Assembly (NCBI GenBank): GCA_024644015.1 | Contig: JAHELV010000041.1 | Coordinates: 1-36,622 of the forward strand | Length of the DNA stretch: 36,622 nucleotides | Reading direction: 5' to 3' | DNA from: Nitriliruptorales bacterium | Lineage (GTDB): Bacteria > Actinomycetota > Nitriliruptoria > Euzebyales > JAHELV01 | Shown here: positions 3,907-32,335 of the stretch, one piece after another | Layout: every line of letters begins with the position of its first letter | Numbering within the stretch: position 1 is the first letter of the stretch | The notes under the pieces: generated by a model | The model's input: only the letters and a program-made list of their open reading frames with translations | Databases searched by the model: none | What the model was told of the DNA's origin: nothing | Made by a program: the position numbers and the translations under genes

Positions 3907-5427
3907 TCACAGCTGCGACTCGATCGGCAGCGTCCGCAGCACCGCCACCATGGCCCGCAAGCCCAGACCCGCGTAGGGCTCGGAGGCGAAGGTCACGTCG
4001 GTACCATCCTGGCGGGCCGTCCACCGCAGCGACTCCCTGCCCCGGTCGTCGGTCTCGAGCGTGACCCGGAATGCCACGTCCCCGATGATGCGATCGAAGA
4101 AGTTTGCCGAGTCGCCCGCCATCTGCGCGTCGTTGATCAACAGTCCGATCTCGCTGTTGATGTCCAGTGACCGCCGGTCGAAGTTGAACGACCCGACGAA
4201 CATGGTTTCTCGGTCGAACGCCATGGTCTTCGCGTGCAGGCTCGATTTGCCCAACGCCGGCAGCCACACGAACAGCCGCTGCTTGTCGAGTCTGATGTGC
4301 TCGTCGAGTTCGTAGAGCTCGACTCCACACCGCAGGAGGGGCTTGCGGTACTTGGCGTACCCGGCGTGGACCGCGGGGACGTCGTTGGAGGCCAGCGAGT
4401 TCGTCAGGATCCTCACCCGGACACCCTGGCGGGCCAACGTGCACAGGGCGTCGGTGGCGATCGGACCCGGCACGAAGTAGGGGGACACGATCACGACGTC
4501 GGTGTTCGCCGAGACGATGGATGGGGCGAGTTGCGAGATCAGCCGTTCCTGGCGCCAGTGCGCGTCGTGTGTCTGCTTGTCCGGCGAGTCGTCGACGACG
4601 GTTGCTTCGGCCCACCGGAAGTCGACCGTCCCATCCCGCAGGGCGTGGGCCAGCGGGGAGTCCTGAACGGCTTGCACGTAGGTCGTCGCCGAGCGGTCCG
4701 CGCGAGCGATCTCGCTGCGGAAGCGCAGTTCTTCGAGGTCATGTTCCGTCCCCTGTCGAACCAGTGACGCCACCGGGACGGCGTGCTCGCTGTTCCAGTA
4801 GCGGTCGAAGACCGCCTCGACATCGTGGACCACAGGGCCCGCGGCAACGACGTCGCGATCGACAAAGGCGAGTTCGGGGTCGGCGTCAAAGAACGGGTCG
4901 GCGATGTTGCGCCCGCCCACGACCGTGACCTGGTTGTCGACGGTGAAGGACTTCGAGTGCATGCGGGAGTTCAGCTGCCTACGCCGCATGAGGTACTGGA
5001 GGGCTCGTGATCTGCCCCTGACCCAGGGGTTGAAGAGGCGCACGTCGATGTTGGCGTGCGCATCGAGTGCGACCCAGGTGTCTTCGTCCTTGTCGCCGTA
5101 GACGTCGTCGATCAGCATCCGGACCCGGACGCCACGCTCCGCCGCCTCGAGCACATGGTGCGTGAGCAGCGTCCCTACCGTGTCCTGGCGATACAGGTAG
5201 TACTGAAGGTCGATGCTGCGTTCAGCTCGCTGCGCCAGGACCGCTCGGGCGACAAACGCGTCGCGACCGCTTCGCAGCAGGAGGGTTCCGTTCTTGCCGG
5301 GGTGGGCGGACGAGCGCTCGGCCAGGTCTCGGCCGAGGCTCGTCTGCGTGCCCTGTGCGGCTGGAATCGCCCCCGTGTCCGCGCGGTCGTCGGCGTCGGG
5401 AAGGCCTCTACCACGTCCACGCAGCAT
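3907..5427 (-). CDS. Phospholipase D family protein / cardiolipin synthase (ClsC-like), 506 aa
   Basis: Two HKD motifs define a PLD-superfamily phosphatidyltransferase: HSKSFTVD (H157, K159, D164) followed by GGRNI, and HAKTMAFD (H398, K400, D405) followed by GSFNFDRRS. The overall pattern (SIDLQYYLY, GVRVRMLIDD, VRLFNPW, FDRYWNSE) matches ClsC/YmdC-type cardiolipin synthases, which make cardiolipin by phosphatidyl transfer. The length is close to E. coli ClsC (~473 aa) with a slightly longer N-terminus. No clear membrane helix or lipobox is seen. The ATG at 5427 is the furthest usable start; a shorter start before HPGKNG is possible. The last ~90 bp are duplicated at 156-246. Substrate could instead be another phospholipid head group. 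Confidence 0.85.
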   Translation of the reverse strand: MLRGRGRGLPDADDRADTGAIPAAQGTQTSLGRDLAERSSAHPGKNGTLLLRSGRDAFVARAVLAQRAERSIDLQYYLYRQDTVGTLLTHHVLEAAERGVRVRMLIDDVYGDKDEDTWVALDAHANIDVRLFNPWVRGRSRALQYLMRRRQLNSRMHSKSFTVDNQVTVVGGRNIADPFFDADPELAFVDRDVVAAGPVVHDVEAVFDRYWNSEHAVPVASLVRQGTEHDLEELRFRSEIARADRSATTYVQAVQDSPLAHALRDGTVDFRWAEATVVDDSPDKQTHDAHWRQERLISQLAPSIVSANTDVVIVSPYFVPGPIATDALCTLARQGVRVRILTNSLASNDVPAVHAGYAKYRKPLLRCGVELYELDEHIRLDKQRLFVWLPALGKSSLHAKTMAFDRETMFVGSFNFDRRSLDINSEIGLLINDAQMAGDSANFFDRIIGDVAFRVTLETDDRGRESLRWTARQDGTDVTFASEPYAGLGLRAMVAVLRTLPIESQL

Positions 5428-5872
5428 GCGGGCTCCGATCTACTGTTAGGCCATCGCGACGACGTCGCTCGGGCTTCGCCGTCCTTGACGGCGTCGCCGC
5501 GCCTGATGGGTACATGACGCGTTCGGTGTCGTCACTCATCACAGTCCATCGTTCACCGAGTTTCGGCGCCGAATCCGGAGATCCAGTGATCGAGTAGGGT
5601 CACCGTACGCAGTCTGGGAGGGGCTGCTATCCAATGACGGCACGGTTCCCGTCGCCGCTCCCGGACAGGCGACGTCGGTCGCTGGTTGGCGAGGTCGAAG
5701 ACCGAGAGCATGCCGGTGAACTGCCCAACGTCGATGATCCGTCCGCGCGGACGCGAGTGGTGACGCTCGAGGATCCGGGTCGAACGTCCCGTCGATAGCA
5801 GGCTGACGTCCCTGCGAGGTGGGTGCGGGTCGGCCAGGCTGGCCCCGTCTTTCGCCAACACCGGAGTTATCG
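5428..5872. other. 445-bp intergenic region, one doubtful short reading frame
   Basis: This separates the divergently transcribed phospholipase D and sulfur-operon genes and should contain both promoters. No convincing -10/-35 pair was identified. A 54-codon forward frame runs from ATG 5634 to TAG 5798 (begins MTARFPSPLPDRRRR) with GGGAGG about 13 nt upstream. It resembles nothing recognised and has an arginine-rich composition, so it is probably not a gene. Confidence 0.4.
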
Positions 5873-7117
5873 ATGAAGCGCATGCTCGTGCTCGGAGCCG
5901 GCACTGCAGGTACGACGGTGGTGAACAAGCTGCGTCCCCGCCTTGACAAGCGGGAGTGGGACATCACGATCGTCGACCAGGACGCGGTGCACCACTATCA
6001 GCCGGGCTACCTGTTCGTGCCGTTCGGGACCTACAGCCCCGAGGAGATCGTGCGGCCGCGTGAGCGCTTCATCCCGCCGGGCGTGGAGCTTGTCGAGGGT
6101 GAGATCGACGTGGTGAAGCCCGACGAGCGAGTGGTCCAGCTGACGAACGGCACTGTCTTGGACTACGACCAGCTCGTCATCGCAACGGGTGTGACACCCC
6201 GGCCCGACCAGACTCCAGGCATGGTCGACGAGGAATGGCGGCGCAGCATCTTCGACTTCTACACCCTCGACGGGGCTGTGGCGCTGCGCGACGCGCTCGC
6301 CACATGGAACGGCGGACGCCTGGTCGTGCACATCACCGAGTTGCCGATCAAGTGCCCCGTGGCGCCGCTCGAGTTCGCGTTTCTGGCCGACGCGTTCCTG
6401 CGCGAGCGAGGGATTCGCGACCGTGTCGAGCTGGTGTTCGTCACGCCGCTCGACGGCGCGTTCACCAAGCCGATCGCGTCGGCGCGGCTCGGCGGCATGC
6501 TCGACGAGCGCGGGATCGTGCTCGAAACGGACTTCATGATCGAGCGGGTCGATCCCTCGGCCAAGACGCTGGTCTCCTACGACGAGCGCGAGATCCCCTT
6601 CGACCTGCTCGTCACCGTGCCGGTCAACATGGGTGCCGAGTTCGTCGCTCGCAGCGGGCTCGGCGACGAGTTGAACTGCGTGCCGGTCGACAAGCACACC
6701 CTGCTGTCAACCCGCTACGACAACATCTTCGCCGTCGGTGACGCCGCCGACCTGCCGATCTCCAAGGCGGGTTCCACCGCGCACTTCTCCATCGAGCTGT
6801 TCGCGGAGAACTTCGTCCACCACGTCAAAGGTGAACCGATGACCGCGGCGTTCGACGGGCACGCGAACTGTTTCGTCGAGGCCGGCGACGGCAAGGCGCT
6901 CCTGCTCGACTTCAACTACGACACGCAGCCGCTGCCCGGCAAGTACCCCTTGCCGGTCGTCGGCCCGTTCAGCCTGCTGGAGGCGACCACGGCCAATCAC
7001 TGGGGCAAGCACGCCTTCAAGTGGGCGTACTGGAACGTGCTGTTGCCGGGCCGGCGCCTGCCGCTGCCGGCGCTGATGACCACTGCGGGAAAGACCCGCG
7101 AGGAGGTGTCGCAATGA
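5873..7117 (+). CDS. Sulfide:quinone oxidoreductase-like FAD flavoprotein, 414 aa
   Basis: Likely oxidises sulfide (or a persulfide) and passes electrons to quinone at the membrane. The N-terminus has the FAD dinucleotide fold MLVLGAGTAGTTVVNKL; a second flavin motif is VGDAADLP. Two cysteines fall where SQR redox cysteines are expected: KCPVAPLEF in the middle and HANCFVE near the C-terminus (matching the GYxxCP region of SQRs). The C-terminal KHAFKWAYWNVLLPG is typical of the membrane-associated tail. ATG 5873 is chosen because GGAG (5863-5866) is 6 nt upstream; an earlier in-frame GTG at 5819 adds residues unlike the family. The stop overlaps the next start (ATGA). The SQR subtype cannot be assigned by eye, and a related flavoprotein with another sulfur substrate remains possible. 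Confidence 0.8.
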   Translation: MKRMLVLGAGTAGTTVVNKLRPRLDKREWDITIVDQDAVHHYQPGYLFVPFGTYSPEEIVRPRERFIPPGVELVEGEIDVVKPDERVVQLTNGTVLDYDQLVIATGVTPRPDQTPGMVDEEWRRSIFDFYTLDGAVALRDALATWNGGRLVVHITELPIKCPVAPLEFAFLADAFLRERGIRDRVELVFVTPLDGAFTKPIASARLGGMLDERGIVLETDFMIERVDPSAKTLVSYDEREIPFDLLVTVPVNMGAEFVARSGLGDELNCVPVDKHTLLSTRYDNIFAVGDAADLPISKAGSTAHFSIELFAENFVHHVKGEPMTAAFDGHANCFVEAGDGKALLLDFNYDTQPLPGKYPLPVVGPFSLLEATTANHWGKHAFKWAYWNVLLPGRRLPLPALMTTAGKTREEVSQ

Positions 7118-7428
7118 CCCTGGCCACCATGAACGGGCAGGACGTCCACGTCGACGACGAGGGCTTCCTCACCGAGTACGACGAATGGGACCACGAGCTC
7201 GCAAAGACCCTGGCTGCCAACATCGGGATCGAGCTCACCGATGCGCACATGAATGTGCTCGAGTTTCTGCGCGCGGACTACAAAGAGCAGGGCGAGACGG
7301 CGACCCTGCGTCGCGTCACAACGATGGGCGGCACGCCCACCAAGGAACTGTTCCGACTGTTCCCCAAGAAGCCGGCCAAGAAGATGGCCTACATCGCCGG
7401 GCTGCCAAAGCCCGTCGGTTGCGTGTGA
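7114..7428 (+). CDS. DsrC/TusE-family sulfur carrier, single-cysteine type, 104 aa
   Basis: Small sulfur-relay protein. DDEGFLTEYDEWDHELAK, GIELTDAHMNVLEFLR and the C-terminal arm IAGLPKPVGCV are the family hallmarks. The penultimate cysteine (CysA, Cys103) is present. The second cysteine of true DsrC (CysB, 11 residues earlier) is replaced: the equivalent stretch reads KKMAYIAG. The protein therefore cannot form the intramolecular trisulfide of dissimilatory DsrC and resembles TusE or DsrC-related persulfide carriers. AGGAGGTG (7101-7108) lies just upstream and the start overlaps the flavoprotein stop by 4 nt, so the two are translationally coupled. The likely role is to accept sulfane sulfur made by the flavoprotein or DsrE2. 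Confidence 0.85.
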   Translation: MTLATMNGQDVHVDDEGFLTEYDEWDHELAKTLAANIGIELTDAHMNVLEFLRADYKEQGETATLRRVTTMGGTPTKELFRLFPKKPAKKMAYIAGLPKPVGCV

Positions 7429-7447
7429 GCCCAGGAGGTTCCCCCAT

Positions 7448-7957
7448 ATGACAACCGCCACCTCTGCAGCGCCGATTCCCTCGTTCGACGACGACGCGGG
7501 CGGACGCAAGCTGTGCATCATCTGCTCGAAGGGGTCACTCGACATGGCCTACCCGGGGCTGGTGCTCGCGAACGCCGCGCTCGGCGAAGGCGTGGAGACG
7601 CACATGTTCTTCACGTTCTGGGGTTTCGACATCATCAACCGCAAGACCATGGGGCATCTGCAGTTCTCACCGGTCGGCAACCCGGCCACGCACATGCCCA
7701 CCGCGCTGATGGGCCTGCCCGGTATGCAGTCGTTTGCAACCCACATGATGCGAAAGCAGATCGAAGGCATCGACGTACCCGAGGTGCCCGAGTTTCTCGA
7801 GCTGATCACCGACGCCGGCGGTCACCTGTGGGCGTGCCGCATGTCGGCCGACATGATGCACCTCACCAAAGACGATCTGTATGAGCGGGTCGAGGACATC
7901 ATCAGCGCGAGCGACTTCATCGAGCTGTCCGAGGGTGCCCAGACGATCTTCGTCTGA
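7448..7957 (+). CDS. DsrE2-family sulfur-transfer protein, 169 aa
   Basis: Belongs to the DsrE/DsrF/DrsH-like superfamily, DsrE2 branch. KLCIICSKGSLDMAYPGLVL, THMFFTFWGFDIIN, ACRMSADMM and the C-terminal EGAQTIFV follow the DsrE2 pattern; the cysteine in ACRMS is the conserved sulfur-carrying residue and those in LCIICS are additional candidates. DsrE2 proteins of sulfur oxidisers carry persulfide and exchange it with TusA or DsrC. A strong AGGAGG (7433-7438) precedes ATG 7448, 19 nt after the carrier gene. No TusA, rhodanese or Hdr-like genes follow in the window, so the final acceptor is unknown. Confidence 0.85.
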   Translation: MTTATSAAPIPSFDDDAGGRKLCIICSKGSLDMAYPGLVLANAALGEGVETHMFFTFWGFDIINRKTMGHLQFSPVGNPATHMPTALMGLPGMQSFATHMMRKQIEGIDVPEVPEFLELITDAGGHLWACRMSADMMHLTKDDLYERVEDIISASDFIELSEGAQTIFV

Positions 7958-12884: not shown

Positions 12885-13048
12885 GGCCTGTTTGGTGGTT
12901 CCGCTCGGCATTCGGCTGCGTCTGCATCCCTGCTCGCTTCGTTGCGGCTCGCGCACATACAAGCCCGGTATGCCGCGCTCGCCGCGCCTTGTGAGCCGGG
13001 CGCAGCCGCACCCTCGGTGCATGACCGGTCCACCAAACAGGCCCTAGG
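12880..13048. mobile_element. MITE-like element, 169 bp with perfect 19-bp terminal inverted repeats
   Basis: CCTAGGGCCTGTTTGGTGG (12880-12898) is the exact reverse complement of 13030-13048. Subterminal arms also pair (CGGCTGCG on the left, CGCAGCCG on the right), so the interior can fold back extensively. It has no transposase frame. Both ends carry CTAG, which could be part of the repeat or a palindromic target duplication. The structure fits a miniature inverted-repeat element mobilised in trans, perhaps by an IS5-like transposase (inferred only from the general look of the ends). Confidence 0.75.
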
Positions 13049-13169
13049 CGTCTGCTGCACGGCTCCTGCCGAGGCACGCGGTGGCGCGACCAACGCGTAC
13101 GGACAAGGTCCCGGCGTGCCAGGGCCATTGGTCCTGACATCGAGTCCTAGAGTCGACCACTATGCGACT

Positions 13170-13586
13170 GTGAGACTTGAACTGACGCGCAAGACGGACC
13201 TGGCGTTGCGGGCGCTGCAGACGCTGCCCAGCGCCGGCGCGCTGCGCAAGGGCAGCGAGCTCGCCGACGAACTCGGCACGAGCGCCGGATTCTTGGTGCA
13301 GGTGCTTGCGCCGCTCACGTCGGCGGGATGGGTACGCTCGGTGCCGGGTCCGCGTGGCGGATACCAGGCGACCGAAGCCGCGCCCGACGCCTCTCTGCTG
13401 CAGCTCATCGAGGCCGTCGAGGGCCCGGTGGAGTCCGACCGCTGCGTGCTGCGCGAGCAGCCCTGCCCGGCGCTGGTGTCGTGCGCGTTGCACGACGCCT
13501 GGATGCCGGCGCGTGACGCGCTCGTCGCACGCCTCGCCGCAACACCCGCGCTGGCCCCAACGCGCGGTCAACAACTGAAGGAGTGA
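13170..13586 (+). CDS. Rrf2-family Fe-S regulator, NsrR-like, 138 aa
   Basis: DNA-binding protein of the Rrf2 family: N-terminal winged helix (LTRKTDLALRALQ, LADELGTSAGFLVQVLAPL, GPRGGYQ). It has three cysteines at 92, 99 and 105 (CVLREQPCPALVSC), positions nearly the same as the cluster ligands of Streptomyces NsrR. Such proteins sense nitric oxide through a [4Fe-4S] or [2Fe-2S] cluster and repress NO and nitrite metabolism. The stop is 6 nt before the nirK start, and AAGGAG (13577-13582) lies inside its 3' end, so the pair is a coupled operon. The GTG start is chosen from the family-typical first residues (xLTRKTDLAL). Confidence 0.85.
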   Translation: MRLELTRKTDLALRALQTLPSAGALRKGSELADELGTSAGFLVQVLAPLTSAGWVRSVPGPRGGYQATEAAPDASLLQLIEAVEGPVESDRCVLREQPCPALVSCALHDAWMPARDALVARLAATPALAPTRGQQLKE

Positions 13587-13592
13587 GCGAAC

Positions 13593-15239
13593 ATGGCTGG
13601 CCAGGTGCGAACCGACGACACCCCAGGGCGGGATCCCAGTCCGTGGACCCGTGGTCTGGCGCTGAGCATGATCGCTGTCGCGCTGCTCCTGGTCCTCGTG
13701 GTCGCCAATCAGATCGGCGGCATTCTGATCGCCGGGGATCTGCGTGACGAGTACCAGCAGCTCGTGAGCGACACGCGGGCGCAGCCCGGCCAACCGGTCG
13801 CGCTGACCGATACCGCACAGCCGGCGTCCGGAGATGCGCAGGGCGCCGGCGGCGCCATCCCGGAGCTGGTCGCCAAGGGCGACCTCGGGCCGGTTCCATC
13901 CGGTGAGACCAATGTGGCGGTGGCGCCCGAGATGCCTCCGCCGGCCGACCGCTCGGAGCAGGCGATCGTCGACGTGGCCTTCGAGGTCGTCGAGAACGTG
14001 TCCACCATCGACCCCGCGAGCGGCACGAAGCACGAGACCTGGGGCTACAGGATCCTCGGCGGTCCCGACGGACCTGTGGTCGGCACACCCGGTCCGGTCA
14101 TCCGTGCGCGGGTCGGCGACGTCCTGCGCTTCACGATCACCAACCCACAGGGCAACCAGAACCCCCACAACGTCGACCTGCACGCCGTGACGGGCCAGGG
14201 CGGCGGGGCAGCGGCGACGACCGTGGCGCCCGGTGAGACCCGCACCATCGAGGCGCGGCTGCTCTACCCGGGATTCTTCATGTACCACTGCGCCTACGGG
14301 GACGTGCCGGCGCACATCTCCCACGGCATGTTCGGTGGGATCCTGGTCGATCCCGACATCCCGCTGCCCGCCGTCGACCACGAGTGGTATGTCGTGCAGT
14401 CCGAGTACTACGTGGCGGACGGTGGCGCGAAAGTGGGCAAGCTCGATCGCACCGCGCTGACCGACGAGTCCCCGAGCCATGTGGTGTTCAACGGGGCGGT
14501 CGGCGCGCTGACCGATGACAACGCCCTGCAGATGCAGGTCGGCGAGCGCAGCCGGATCTACTTCGTCAACGCCGGGCTGAACCTGATCTCGAGCTTCCAC
14601 CCGATCGGCTCCCACTGGGACACCGTCTATCCGGAGGCTGCACTGCTCAACACCCCGCTGCGAGGGTCACAGACGACCCTGGTGCCCGCAGGCGGCGGCA
14701 CGGTCGTCGAGATGGTGGGTCAGGTGCCCCAGACCGTGGTGCTCGTCGACCACGCGCTGTCCCGGGCGTTCGACAAGGGGGCCATCGGTCAGGTCGTGAT
14801 CGACGGGGCAGAGAACGCCGAGATCTTCGAGGAGGTCGACCCCGCCGAGATCCCCGACGCAGGTGCCGGCACGACACCCGACGAGTCGGCGACCGCTCAG
14901 GCCGGTGCGGACGCTGCGTCCGGTGCGACCGAGACGGTGTCGATCGTGCAAGGCTCCGCCGAGTTCCAAGACGATGGTGCCGCTGACGAGTTCGCCGATA
15001 CCGAGGACCCCGCCGACTACTCGGTCAATGTGCTCGAGGTCAAGGTCGGTGACACGGTGACCTGGACCAACGAGGACCAGGGGATCATGCACACCGTGAC
15101 CGCGGTCGACGGATCGTTCGACTCCGACCTGCTGGGCACGGGGGAGTCGTGGTCGTACACGTTCACCGAGGCCGGCGAGTTCGAGTACCTGTGCACCCCA
15201 CACCCGTGGATGCGTGCAAAGGTCGTGGTGACCGGGTAG
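13593..15239 (+). CDS. nirK: Copper nitrite reductase NirK, membrane-anchored, with C-terminal cupredoxin domain, 548 aa
   Basis: Reduces nitrite to nitric oxide outside the membrane. One N-terminal helix (residues 21-45) anchors it. The core (about 125-410) resembles Neisseria AniA and has all copper ligands: type 1 H192, C233, H241, M246; type 2 H197, H232, H387; catalytic D195 (NPHNVDLH) and H336 (SSFHPIG). After an Ala/Asp-rich linker (412-446) comes a third cupredoxin domain with its own type 1 site: H500 (GIMHTV), C534, H537, M540 (YLCTPHPWM). This extra domain probably relays electrons to the core. Upstream coupling to an NsrR-like gene suggests NO- or nitrite-responsive expression. 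A hairpin terminator follows. Confidence 0.92.
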   Translation: MAGQVRTDDTPGRDPSPWTRGLALSMIAVALLLVLVVANQIGGILIAGDLRDEYQQLVSDTRAQPGQPVALTDTAQPASGDAQGAGGAIPELVAKGDLGPVPSGETNVAVAPEMPPPADRSEQAIVDVAFEVVENVSTIDPASGTKHETWGYRILGGPDGPVVGTPGPVIRARVGDVLRFTITNPQGNQNPHNVDLHAVTGQGGGAAATTVAPGETRTIEARLLYPGFFMYHCAYGDVPAHISHGMFGGILVDPDIPLPAVDHEWYVVQSEYYVADGGAKVGKLDRTALTDESPSHVVFNGAVGALTDDNALQMQVGERSRIYFVNAGLNLISSFHPIGSHWDTVYPEAALLNTPLRGSQTTLVPAGGGTVVEMVGQVPQTVVLVDHALSRAFDKGAIGQVVIDGAENAEIFEEVDPAEIPDAGAGTTPDESATAQAGADAASGATETVSIVQGSAEFQDDGAADEFADTEDPADYSVNVLEVKVGDTVTWTNEDQGIMHTVTAVDGSFDSDLLGTGESWSYTFTEAGEFEYLCTPHPWMRAKVVVTG

Positions 15240-29566: not shown

Positions 29567-31525
29567 ATGGCCGCAGCAGGCACCACCGTGCAACCACGCA
29601 CCAGACGCCGGCGAACAGAGAAGCCGACGTGGGAGCTGGTCTACAAGCGGAATTCCATCGAGCGCCTGAAGCGTGAGAAGTTCCCGCTCGACATCGTCGA
29701 CGAGCTGCCGCAGCTCATCGCGATGGGGTACGAGGCGGTGCCCGAGGAGGACATCGTCCGCCTGAACTGGTGGGGGCTGACGCACGACAAGCCGAAGCTC
29801 GGCACCTTCATGGTGCGCATCAAGGTCTCTGGAGGTCTGATACAGCCGGCGCAGCTGCGGGAGGTCGGACGGATCTCGCAGCAGTTCGGCCGCAACTACG
29901 GCGAGCTGACGACCCGCCAGGGCCTGCAGCTGCACTGGGCGCGGCTCGACCAGTTGCCCGAGGTCATCGCCGCCATCCAGGCGACCGGTCTCACAACGGT
30001 CGGGGGAGAGGGTGACACGGTCCGCAACATCACCGGCTGCCCGGTCGCGGGTATCTCACGCGACGAGCCGTTCGACGTGACGCCGGTCATCGCGCAGGTC
30101 GCCGACTACTTCTACGGCAACCGCGAGTACTCGAACCTGCCGCGCAAGCACAAGTACACGATCGCGGCGTGCCCCGGACAGTGCAACGCGCCGGAGATCA
30201 GCGACGTCGCGCTGATCGGCGTCGTCAAGGACGGTCGTGACGGGTTCGCGCTGAGCGTCGGCGGTGGATTGTCGAACATCCCACGCCTTGCGCGCGACCT
30301 CGGCGTGTTCGTGCCGGTCGACGAGACCATCGAGGTGCTGCGGGCGGTCACCGACGCCTGGCAGTCCGACCCCAAGTACCGGGTCAGCCGGGCCAAGGCC
30401 CGGATCAAGTTCATGATGGACGACCACGGTCCCGAAGGCGTGCGGGCCAAGGTCGAGGAGCGCCTCGGACGCCGGCTCGAGGACCATACGGCACCGGAGC
30501 CGATCGACGGCGTCGACCACCTCGGGGTTCACCCGCAGCGCCAGACCGACAGGATCTACGCCGGCTTCTCGGTGCCGATGGGGTGGCTGACCGGCGATCA
30601 GATGATCGGCATCGCCGACGTCGTCGAGCCGTTCGGCGGCGACATCCGACTGACCCGCCAGCAGGACCTGATCGTCGGCAACGTGCCGGTGTCGCAGATG
30701 GGCGGCTTCCTGGAGGGCATGAAGGCGCTCGGCATGCCGATCACCCGCAACCGCGTGTACGGCAACTCGATCGCGTGCACCAGCCACAAGTTCTGCAACT
30801 ACTCGGTGGCCGAGACGAAGGGCAAGCTGAAGGACATCCTCGGCGTCCTCGAGCAACGGTTCGGCACGGCCATCGAAGACCTCAAGTTGTACGTCGACGG
30901 CTGCCCGCATGCGTGCGCCCACCACTGGATCGGCGACATCGGCCTGCAGGGCACCACGACCAAGGACCCGCTGAGCGGCAAGCGCATCGAGGCGTACGAC
31001 GTGACGTTGCGCGGGGGGCTCGGGCGGGCGGCCGCCATCGGCACGCCGCTGCTGCGCCGTGTGCCGACCGACGACATCACCGACGTGATCGTCCGGCTGC
31101 TCGACGGGTGGCTCGCCGACAGGGCGGAGCGCAACGGGTCCGGTGACGGCTTCACGTTCCGCGACTTCTGCGACGGCCGGTCTGACGACGATCTGCGCGC
31201 GATCGCGTCGGGGCAGGCCGTGACCGGCGTGGTCGACGGCGAGACGTCAGATCGCGTGATCGTGCGGGTGCCTGGGACACTGATCGAGCTGTCCGACGGG
31301 GCCGACGAAGTCGCGCTCGACGTGGCCACGGTCGGTGCGGCGCTGGATCAGCTCGCGCTTCTGCACCCGCAGTTGACCGCGTATCTGGTCAGCGCCCCGG
31401 GCCAGATCAACCCGGCCGTCAACCTGTATGTCGGCGAGGACGACATACGCGGGCTCGGCGGCTTCGACGCGCCGCTCGAACCGGGAGACGAGTTGTCGAT
31501 CCTGCCCGCGCTCGCTGGTGGCTGA
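29567..31525 (+). CDS. Siroheme sulfite/nitrite reductase fused to a C-terminal MoaD/CysO-like ubiquitin-fold domain, 652 aa
   Basis: Six-electron reduction of sulfite to sulfide (or nitrite to ammonia). Two ferredoxin-like half domains (NWWGLTHDKPKLGTFMVRIK, GRNYGELTTRQGLQLHW; GWLTGDQM, RLTRQQDLIV) flank the siroheme site. The [4Fe-4S] ligands are C404, C410 (CTSHKFC), C446 and C450 (CPHAC). Residues 562-652 form a ubiquitin-fold: VIVRVPGTLIEL, VNLYVGEDDIRGLGG, LEPGDELSILPALAGG, ending in the Gly-Gly needed for thiocarboxylate formation. The residues that form the Tyr-Cys crosslink of Mycobacterium SirA are not conserved (WWGLTH; GGEGDTVRN). Linkage to APS reductase favours sulfite as substrate. 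ATG 29567; GGAG lies about 13 nt upstream, so translation initiation may be weak. Confidence 0.88.
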   Translation: MAAAGTTVQPRTRRRRTEKPTWELVYKRNSIERLKREKFPLDIVDELPQLIAMGYEAVPEEDIVRLNWWGLTHDKPKLGTFMVRIKVSGGLIQPAQLREVGRISQQFGRNYGELTTRQGLQLHWARLDQLPEVIAAIQATGLTTVGGEGDTVRNITGCPVAGISRDEPFDVTPVIAQVADYFYGNREYSNLPRKHKYTIAACPGQCNAPEISDVALIGVVKDGRDGFALSVGGGLSNIPRLARDLGVFVPVDETIEVLRAVTDAWQSDPKYRVSRAKARIKFMMDDHGPEGVRAKVEERLGRRLEDHTAPEPIDGVDHLGVHPQRQTDRIYAGFSVPMGWLTGDQMIGIADVVEPFGGDIRLTRQQDLIVGNVPVSQMGGFLEGMKALGMPITRNRVYGNSIACTSHKFCNYSVAETKGKLKDILGVLEQRFGTAIEDLKLYVDGCPHACAHHWIGDIGLQGTTTKDPLSGKRIEAYDVTLRGGLGRAAAIGTPLLRRVPTDDITDVIVRLLDGWLADRAERNGSGDGFTFRDFCDGRSDDDLRAIASGQAVTGVVDGETSDRVIVRVPGTLIELSDGADEVALDVATVGAALDQLALLHPQLTAYLVSAPGQINPAVNLYVGEDDIRGLGGFDAPLEPGDELSILPALAGG

Positions 31526-31537
31526 GGAGGACGCGCA

Positions 31538-32335
31538 GTGCTGAAGGAACGTGTGGTCTTTGACGACCTGGAGATCGGCCAGTTGGCCGTCGACCTCGAC
31601 GACCAGGAGCCCGAGGACGTCATCGAGTGGGCGCTGAACACGTTCGGCGAGAACGTCGCCATCGTGACGGCCCTGCAGGCCGACGGCATGGCGATCCTGG
31701 ACATGGCCTACCAGATGTCTCCGGAGGTGCGGGTACTCACGGTCGACACCGGACGACTGCCGCCCGAGACGTTGGCATTCGTCGACGACGTGCGCCGGCG
31801 CTATCCGTTGGTGCGGTTCGACGTGCGCCGACCGGATCACGGTGAGGTCGACGCGATGGTACGGCGCAACGGTACGGAGCTGTTCCGCGAGAGCGTCGAA
31901 AACCGGCTGATGTGCTGCCAGATCCGCAAGGTCCGTCCGCTGACCCAGGCGCTTGAGGGGCTCGACGCGTGGTTCACCGGGTTGCGTCGCGACCAGTGGG
32001 CGTCCCGCGCCGCGATCACCAAGGTCCAGCTCGACCATGACCACGACGGCATCGTCAAGGTCAACCCGCTGGCGGACTGGTCGGCCGAGGAAGTCGACGA
32101 GTACCTGCGCGAGTTCGACGTCCCGGTGCACCCGCTGTACGCGCAAGGGTTCACGAGCATCGGCTGCCAGCCGTGCACCCGGCCCGTCCGCGACGGTGAG
32201 GACGACCGGGCCGGGCGCTGGTGGTGGGAGAGCGACGCGCCGAAGGAGTGCGGCATGCACTGCCCGATCGAGACCGGCGGGTTCGAGCACGAGGTCCACG
32301 CCATCCTTGGGGAGGCCAATGAAGACGGCTACTGA
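31538..32335 (+). CDS. cysH: Adenylylsulfate (APS) reductase, CysH family, 265 aa
   Basis: Reduces adenylylsulfate to sulfite for assimilation. The paired cysteines CC (126-127) and C210-x2-C213 (IGCQPC) are the [4Fe-4S] ligands that mark plant/bacterial APS reductases rather than PAPS reductases. Cys238 in KECGMH is the catalytic nucleophile. LTVDTGRLPPET and GLRRDQWASRA are the nucleotide- and sulfate-binding motifs. It directly supplies sulfite to the reductase encoded 12 nt upstream; GAGGAGG lies between. The stop overlaps the next start by 17 nt. Confidence 0.93.
   Translation: MLKERVVFDDLEIGQLAVDLDDQEPEDVIEWALNTFGENVAIVTALQADGMAILDMAYQMSPEVRVLTVDTGRLPPETLAFVDDVRRRYPLVRFDVRRPDHGEVDAMVRRNGTELFRESVENRLMCCQIRKVRPLTQALEGLDAWFTGLRRDQWASRAAITKVQLDHDHDGIVKVNPLADWSAEEVDEYLREFDVPVHPLYAQGFTSIGCQPCTRPVRDGEDDRAGRWWWESDAPKECGMHCPIETGGFEHEVHAILGEANEDGY

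Follow-up and report, generated by a model that had tools for sequence, protein, structure and literature searches.

The DNA analysed here is a contig of 36,622 nucleotides (hereafter the window) from a draft genome of a Nitriliruptorales bacterium (4.0 Mb, 97% complete). Between positions 29567 and 31525 of its forward strand lies a single unbroken frame of 652 amino acids, a sulfite reductase of the SirA/NirA type followed by a C-terminal CysO-like carrier. An in-frame fusion of a sulfite reductase to a sulfur carrier had been proposed in the initial annotation, and the Pfam assignment bears it out, with two NIR_SIR and two NIR_SIR_ferr matches and then ThiS, corresponding to a pair of ferredoxin-like half domains, a pair of nitrite/sulfite reductase domains and one ThiS-family domain. 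The ThiS match covers residues 566 to 652 (E 2.4e-8; 34.8 bits against a Pfam cut-off of 22.5 bits).

The reductase core (residues 1–552, positions 29567–31222, + strand) was assigned by Pfam, Foldseek and phmmer, and its nearest solved structure is NirA of Mycobacterium tuberculosis (1zj8; Foldseek TMt 0.84, phmmer E 6.7e-74). Within positions 30776–30916 (+) four cysteines (Cys404, Cys410, Cys446 and Cys450) occupy invariant alignment columns and are expected to be the ligands of the [4Fe-4S]/siroheme centre. The core is followed by a linker (residues 553–563, positions 31223–31255, +), which is predicted to be disordered and varies in length among homologues, with 12 to 20 residues between landmarks in 15 of them. 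The beta-grasp sulfur-carrier domain comprises the remaining 89 residues (564–652, positions 31256–31522, +), as delimited by Pfam ThiS, structural models and Foldseek; its earlier placement at 31253–31525 was right to within a codon. The final codons of the gene are GGT GGC TGA (31517–31525), and the protein thus ends exactly at Gly-Gly (31517–31522, +) before the stop, as had been noted. This C-terminal Gly-Gly is the putative site of adenylation and thiocarboxylation. GTG codons near 31256, which have no clear ribosome-binding site, are candidate internal starts for a free tail.

An AlphaFold2 model of the entire protein, built from an alignment of 24 sequences, has a mean pLDDT of 82.7. 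Residues 551–560 fall below 50, as expected of a disordered linker, and the last four residues of the protein are also predicted to be disordered. In this model the tail superposes on M. tuberculosis CysO with a TM-score of 0.86–0.87 (Foldseek). Modelled alone, the tail reaches a mean pLDDT of 90 and, among PDB entries, comes closest to M. tuberculosis CysO (3dwg and 3dwm, TM 0.85 and 0.88) and Amycolatopsis CysO (4n6e, 0.88). Its closest solved relatives by sequence are likewise CysO proteins (E ~1e-9). The tail therefore almost certainly has a CysO-like fold, in agreement with the ubiquitin-fold pattern recognized earlier. The original label, MoaD/CysO-like, holds in its second half only: MoaD and ThiS were considered as nearest kin and rejected, because the PDB ranking, like the sequence ranking, puts CysO first.

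The next gene downstream is cysH (31538–32335, +), identified as an APS/PAPS reductase by Pfam/NCBIfam, which starts with GTG. Its likely ribosome-binding site, GAGGAGG, read from the sequence at 31524–31530 (+), overlaps the stop codon of the fused gene. Synteny analysis reveals that cysH adjoins the reductase gene in fused and unfused relatives alike. The fused gene is the only siroheme reductase gene of the genome, and this context, together with the adjoining cysH, points to sulfite as the predicted substrate of the core. The same contig has further sulfur genes: at window positions 5819–7957 (+), the gene of a Pyr_redox_2 protein that may resemble sulfide:quinone oxidoreductase precedes one for a DsrE-family protein. 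A sulfatase with an SGSH-like C-terminal region (440–2815, +) is a possible source of sulfate. At 12942–15239 (+) the gene of an Rrf2 regulator precedes that of a multicopper oxidase which, with its plastocyanin-like domain at the C-terminus, resembles a NirK-cupredoxin fusion.

The initial annotation had suggested looking in the same genome for MoeZ/MoeB, CysM and Mec+ homologues and for a free CysO, and all of these are present. Four genes of the genome belong to the ThiS family. One of them, which shares an operon with the genes of a JAMM protease and CysM, encodes a free CysO of 93 amino acids; this protein ends in ILPAVAGG and has about 40% identity to the tail. The free CysO holds the mec-cysO-cysM position while the fused gene lies beside cysH, and the idea that the tail is the missing CysO of the genome was therefore rejected. 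The sole E1 is of the MoeZ type, with a C-terminal rhodanese domain assigned from sequence and length, and is encoded on another contig than the fused gene. With a free CysO in its own operon and a MoeZ-type E1 available, the tail appears as a second, dedicated carrier, one that the CysO pathway itself does not need. Another frame of this genome (positions 502–2121, −, of locus L003 on contig C110) is a second carrier-enzyme fusion. Its ThiS-like domain, which has an internal SGG, runs directly into a PP-loop ATPase that starts with a CxxC motif, and the whole resembles a TtuB-TtuA fusion for tRNA thiolation; similarly long frames of this kind are present in three other genomes (G001, G003 and G047). 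A JAMM protease was found in 20 of 20 and an E1 in 18 of 20 distinct fusion genomes. However, tail-less sister genomes are equally rich in partners (JAMM in 16/18, CysO-like proteins in 17/18), so the presence of these genes does not prove a link to the tail, and co-occurrence was dropped as an argument.

Surveying sulfite reductases for the same tail, a check already envisaged in the initial annotation, uncovered 20 further distinct fusions in Actinomycetota, Chloroflexota, Armatimonadota, Acidobacteriota and Tectomicrobia, that is, in at least five phyla. One of them (L045) belongs to a named strain, Pyrinomonas methylaliphatogenes K22. Since these loci come from independent assemblies and share the architecture, a frameshift, an assembly artefact or a local sequencing error was rejected as its cause. 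Gly-Gly is kept in all 21 distinct tails, including those outside Actinomycetota that are only 33–58% identical to the tail of the window. Four tails have two residues past it (GA, AV, AR and AC); by analogy with JAMM-processed carriers, we count these extensions in favour of a carrier function. Such extensions are also frequent in free CysOs of the same phyla: those of Chloroflexota and Armatimonadota genomes at loci L094, L096, L136, L138, L139 and L160 have one to eight residues past Gly-Gly, which implies processing before activation. The ratio pN/pS, within and between neighbouring genera, is 0.14–0.57 for the tail, comparable to 0.15–0.42 for the core and 0.21–0.50 for free CysO, and the tail is thus under purifying selection.

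The fusion is uncommon in Actinomycetota. In an evenly drawn sample of 396 genomes, 136 had a SirA-type C-terminal match, and at least six of these have the tail. Six is a lower bound, since the C-terminus was examined in about 63 of the remainder; these approximately 63 showed no tail beyond the six, which belong to the clade of the window. Fusions reported in 2006 from Nocardioides and Acidothermus were not recovered in this sample. Among plasmid records there are 24 reductase matches, all below 60% identity, and none of the best ten of these 24 extends into a tail.

Other arrangements of the same domains were also observed. In an Anaerolineae MAG (locus L046, positions 4965–7748, +), sulfite reductase, carrier domain and CysH are joined through a linker in one frame of 927 amino acids; here Gly-Gly lies inside the protein and, as with MoaX, a cut would be needed to expose it. 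The one relative found ends at a contig end. In Pyrinomonas-type genomes (L141 and L142), the genes of CysM and a JAMM protein lie upstream of one in which CysO forms the N-terminal part of a fusion with a MoeZ-like E1. At locus L066 (4992–5780, +) the frame of a sulfite reductase of this family, with 74% identity, stops short at residue 243 and the next frame is rhodanese-like, which may be an assembly join.

Phylogenetic analysis places all tailed reductases in one clade (support 100/99), and this clade has one origin. Its sister is a tail-less group from Gaiellaceae, Latescibacterota, Gemmatimonadota and other Acidobacteriota. In the tail tree, the 21 tails lie on one side and 40 free CysOs on the other (branch support 100/95), which makes the tail a CysO-like paralogue and not an orthologue. 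The simplest history would be a single fusion of an old CysO-like gene followed by long retention, probably with some horizontal transfer of the fusion.

The tailed reductases are also altered beside the siroheme. Thr72 (codon 29780–29782, +) and Glu148 (codon 30008–30010, +) occupy the positions of Tyr69 and Cys161 of M. tuberculosis NirA. Thr/Glu is found in every tailed reductase and Tyr/Cys in 49 tail-less ones, the whole sister clade included. We take Tyr69 and Cys161 to be the numbers of the cross-linked residues of NirA, which would fit the 1zj8 chain if the construct has 11 extra residues. The exceptions are two Rieske-containing nitrite reductases with Phe/Gly, two distant proteins with Cys/Cys and one truncated sequence. 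Lys194 and Lys196, the counterparts in the alignment of the E. coli SiRHP substrate lysines, remain invariant, as do the four cysteines Cys404, Cys410, Cys446 and Cys450; the enzyme is therefore expected to have remained a siroheme reductase. A Tyr-Cys cross-link beside the siroheme of M. tuberculosis NirA was reported in a 2005 study cited in PMC8092218. Between the tailed and the sister tail-less reductases there are six fixed differences among 528 core positions, two of which are this pair; a simple count puts the probability that both lie among the six at about 1 in 10,000. The tail and the active site have changed in the same lineage. Because both changes fall on one branch, they amount to one historical event and not to a statistical association. 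In two genomes (L040 and L059), the nitrite reductase with a Rieske-like extension and Phe/Gly at these positions is encoded next to the fused sulfite reductase in divergent orientation, which suggests a division of labour.

We propose an assimilatory sulfite reductase that has a CysO-type carrier dedicated to it and tethered in cis: MoeZ would activate the carrier, which would capture sulfide made by the reductase it is fused to. We give this reading a probability of roughly 0.52. Its computed parts are the siroheme/[4Fe-4S] core, the flexible linker, the CysO fold, the invariant Gly-Gly, the one origin, the purifying selection and the partner genes. In the proposed sequence of events, CysH would supply sulfite, which the core would reduce to sulfide. 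The C-terminal glycine of the tail would be adenylated by the MoeZ-type E1, and the acyl-adenylate would be attacked by bisulfide from the same enzyme molecule, giving a C-terminal thiocarboxylate. The carrier could then swing on its linker and deliver the sulfur to CysM or another sulfurtransferase; by the CysM route, O-phosphoserine would be used and a Mec-type protease would finally free cysteine. Krishnamoorthy and Begley (2011) reportedly described a comparable step in Wolinella, where bisulfide supplied by Sir attacks the acyl-adenylate of HcyS. Retention of the fusion in at least five bacterial phyla suggests that sulfide may pass directly to the protein carrier instead of being released. 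There is precedent for the chemistry in CysO, whose thiocarboxylate is installed by MoeZR (PMC3227635), and in MoaD, which free sulfide can convert to the thiocarboxylate at millimolar concentrations (PMC11323500). The parts of the proposal differ in strength: activation of Gly-Gly in vivo is likely, whereas the chance that the sulfur of the tail comes from its own core, which would amount to channelling, is only slightly better than even. Against loading in cis stands the free CysO system of the genome, which is complete without the tail.

The sulfur source is where the closest alternative parts from this proposal. As the E1 has a rhodanese domain, persulfide rather than sulfide is possible as the source, and the tail might be an active thiocarboxylate carrier loaded by the MoeZ rhodanese like free CysO, with no contribution from the sulfide of the core; the fusion would then ensure only equal amounts or co-location. 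The sole E1 of the genome fits such loading, and no fused reductase is needed for MoeZR to load CysO in E. coli (PMC3227635). Nevertheless, we regard this alternative as unlikely, for it leaves unexplained both a carrier-sulfite reductase fusion spread over five phyla and the coincident change of two residues next to the siroheme. More demanding than our proposal is a direct hand-over, in which the activated C-terminus of the tail would reach into the siroheme pocket of its own reductase, a pocket that losing the Tyr-Cys cross-link would have reshaped, and take up the sulfur as thiocarboxylate, no free sulfide leaving the enzyme. We consider this distinctly unlikely; if true, it would be a DsrC-like relay made from a ubiquitin-like carrier.

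Two other alternatives concern what the tail is for. It might never be thiocarboxylated and be instead a ubiquitin-like module for docking or stabilization, through which MoeZ, CysM or ferredoxin partners are recruited. Many fused domains are docking modules, and the free CysO of the genome also serves all the carrier partners. A docking domain, however, would not need Gly-Gly. Yet all 21 distinct tails keep it, even though the final four residues are predicted to be disordered and contribute nothing to the fold; this counts against such a role, which we think quite improbable. A true carrier in cis might instead supply tRNA thiolation, molybdopterin or a thiosugar, leaving cysteine to the free CysO. 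CysO of Amycolatopsis is shared with thiosugar synthesis (4n6e; PMC6225789), the tRNA-thiolase-like PP-loop protein of the genome analysed here has its own fused ThiS-like domain, and tails and free CysOs form separate families. Against this, gene order associates the fusion with cysH alone, and a thiolation gene was not found next to it; this use of the carrier seems to us improbable. The reading we prefer stays with capture of the reductase's sulfide by its own carrier. If it is true, assimilatory sulfur would be kept protein-bound, bypassing toxic, volatile sulfide. A study of CysO loading in 2011 called the sulfur source of CysO unknown (PMC3227635), and a natural fusion of a CysO-like carrier to a sulfite reductase offers one answer that is testable in a single polypeptide, with the coincident loss of the Cys-Tyr pair as a precise, mutable handle on the active site.

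The architecture itself is not new. The initial annotation was not aware of a characterization of the fusion; this holds in that our literature search found no experimental study of a sulfite reductase-carrier fusion, but Iyer, Burroughs and Aravind had already reported a SirA-ThiS fusion in Nocardioides and Acidothermus in 2006, in one sentence and a table note (PMC1779556). As far as the searched literature shows, the fusion is thus known but not characterized. For related operons, the same paper proposed a part in sulfur assimilation and a transfer of sulfite sulfur to such carriers. It describes, as we do, an actinobacterial sulfite reductase with a C-terminal ThiS-like domain, but covers two genera and includes neither a Gly-Gly survey nor an account of distribution, phylogeny or changes at the active site. 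What appears not to have been described before is how widely the fusion is distributed, that its carriers form a clade of their own, that Gly-Gly is conserved, and that Tyr-Cys has changed to Thr-Glu.

The CysO-CysM-Mec-MoeZ system of M. tuberculosis (3dwg, 3dwm; PMC3227635) has the same carrier fold and Gly-Gly end, and all its partner genes are present in this genome; here, however, a second carrier of its own clade is fused to a sulfite reductase, beside cysH and not mec/cysM. NirA/SirA of M. tuberculosis (1zj8) shares the core fold and the cofactor cysteines. It differs in having no carrier tail and in its Tyr69-Cys161 pair, where the fused enzyme has Thr72 and Glu148. Its gene adjoins cysH as the fused gene does here. 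The HcyS/HcyF/HcyD/Sir methionine pathway of Wolinella succinogenes is similar in that its thiocarboxylate is probably formed with Sir bisulfide and its carrier has a JAMM-processed C-terminus, and different in that HcyS and Sir are separate proteins. DsrC also differs, as a separate protein of another fold with cysteines on a C-terminal arm. Like our carrier domain as proposed, it is a small protein taking sulfur from a siroheme reductase, and DsrC with DsrAB (2v4j) is among the Foldseek matches. The E1 of Hcy-type operons has no rhodanese domain (PMC1779556), whereas the sole E1 here has one and is not encoded with the carrier. A related idea is realized in some NirA proteins of haloarchaea, which carry a fused rhodanese domain (PMC11237513). 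Finally, MoaX of M. tuberculosis, a fused MoaD-MoaE (PMC4326299), likewise joins a sulfur-carrier domain to its partner enzyme; its Gly-Gly is internal and must be cut to work, whereas in the fusions described here, except the triple fusion L046, Gly-Gly is terminal.
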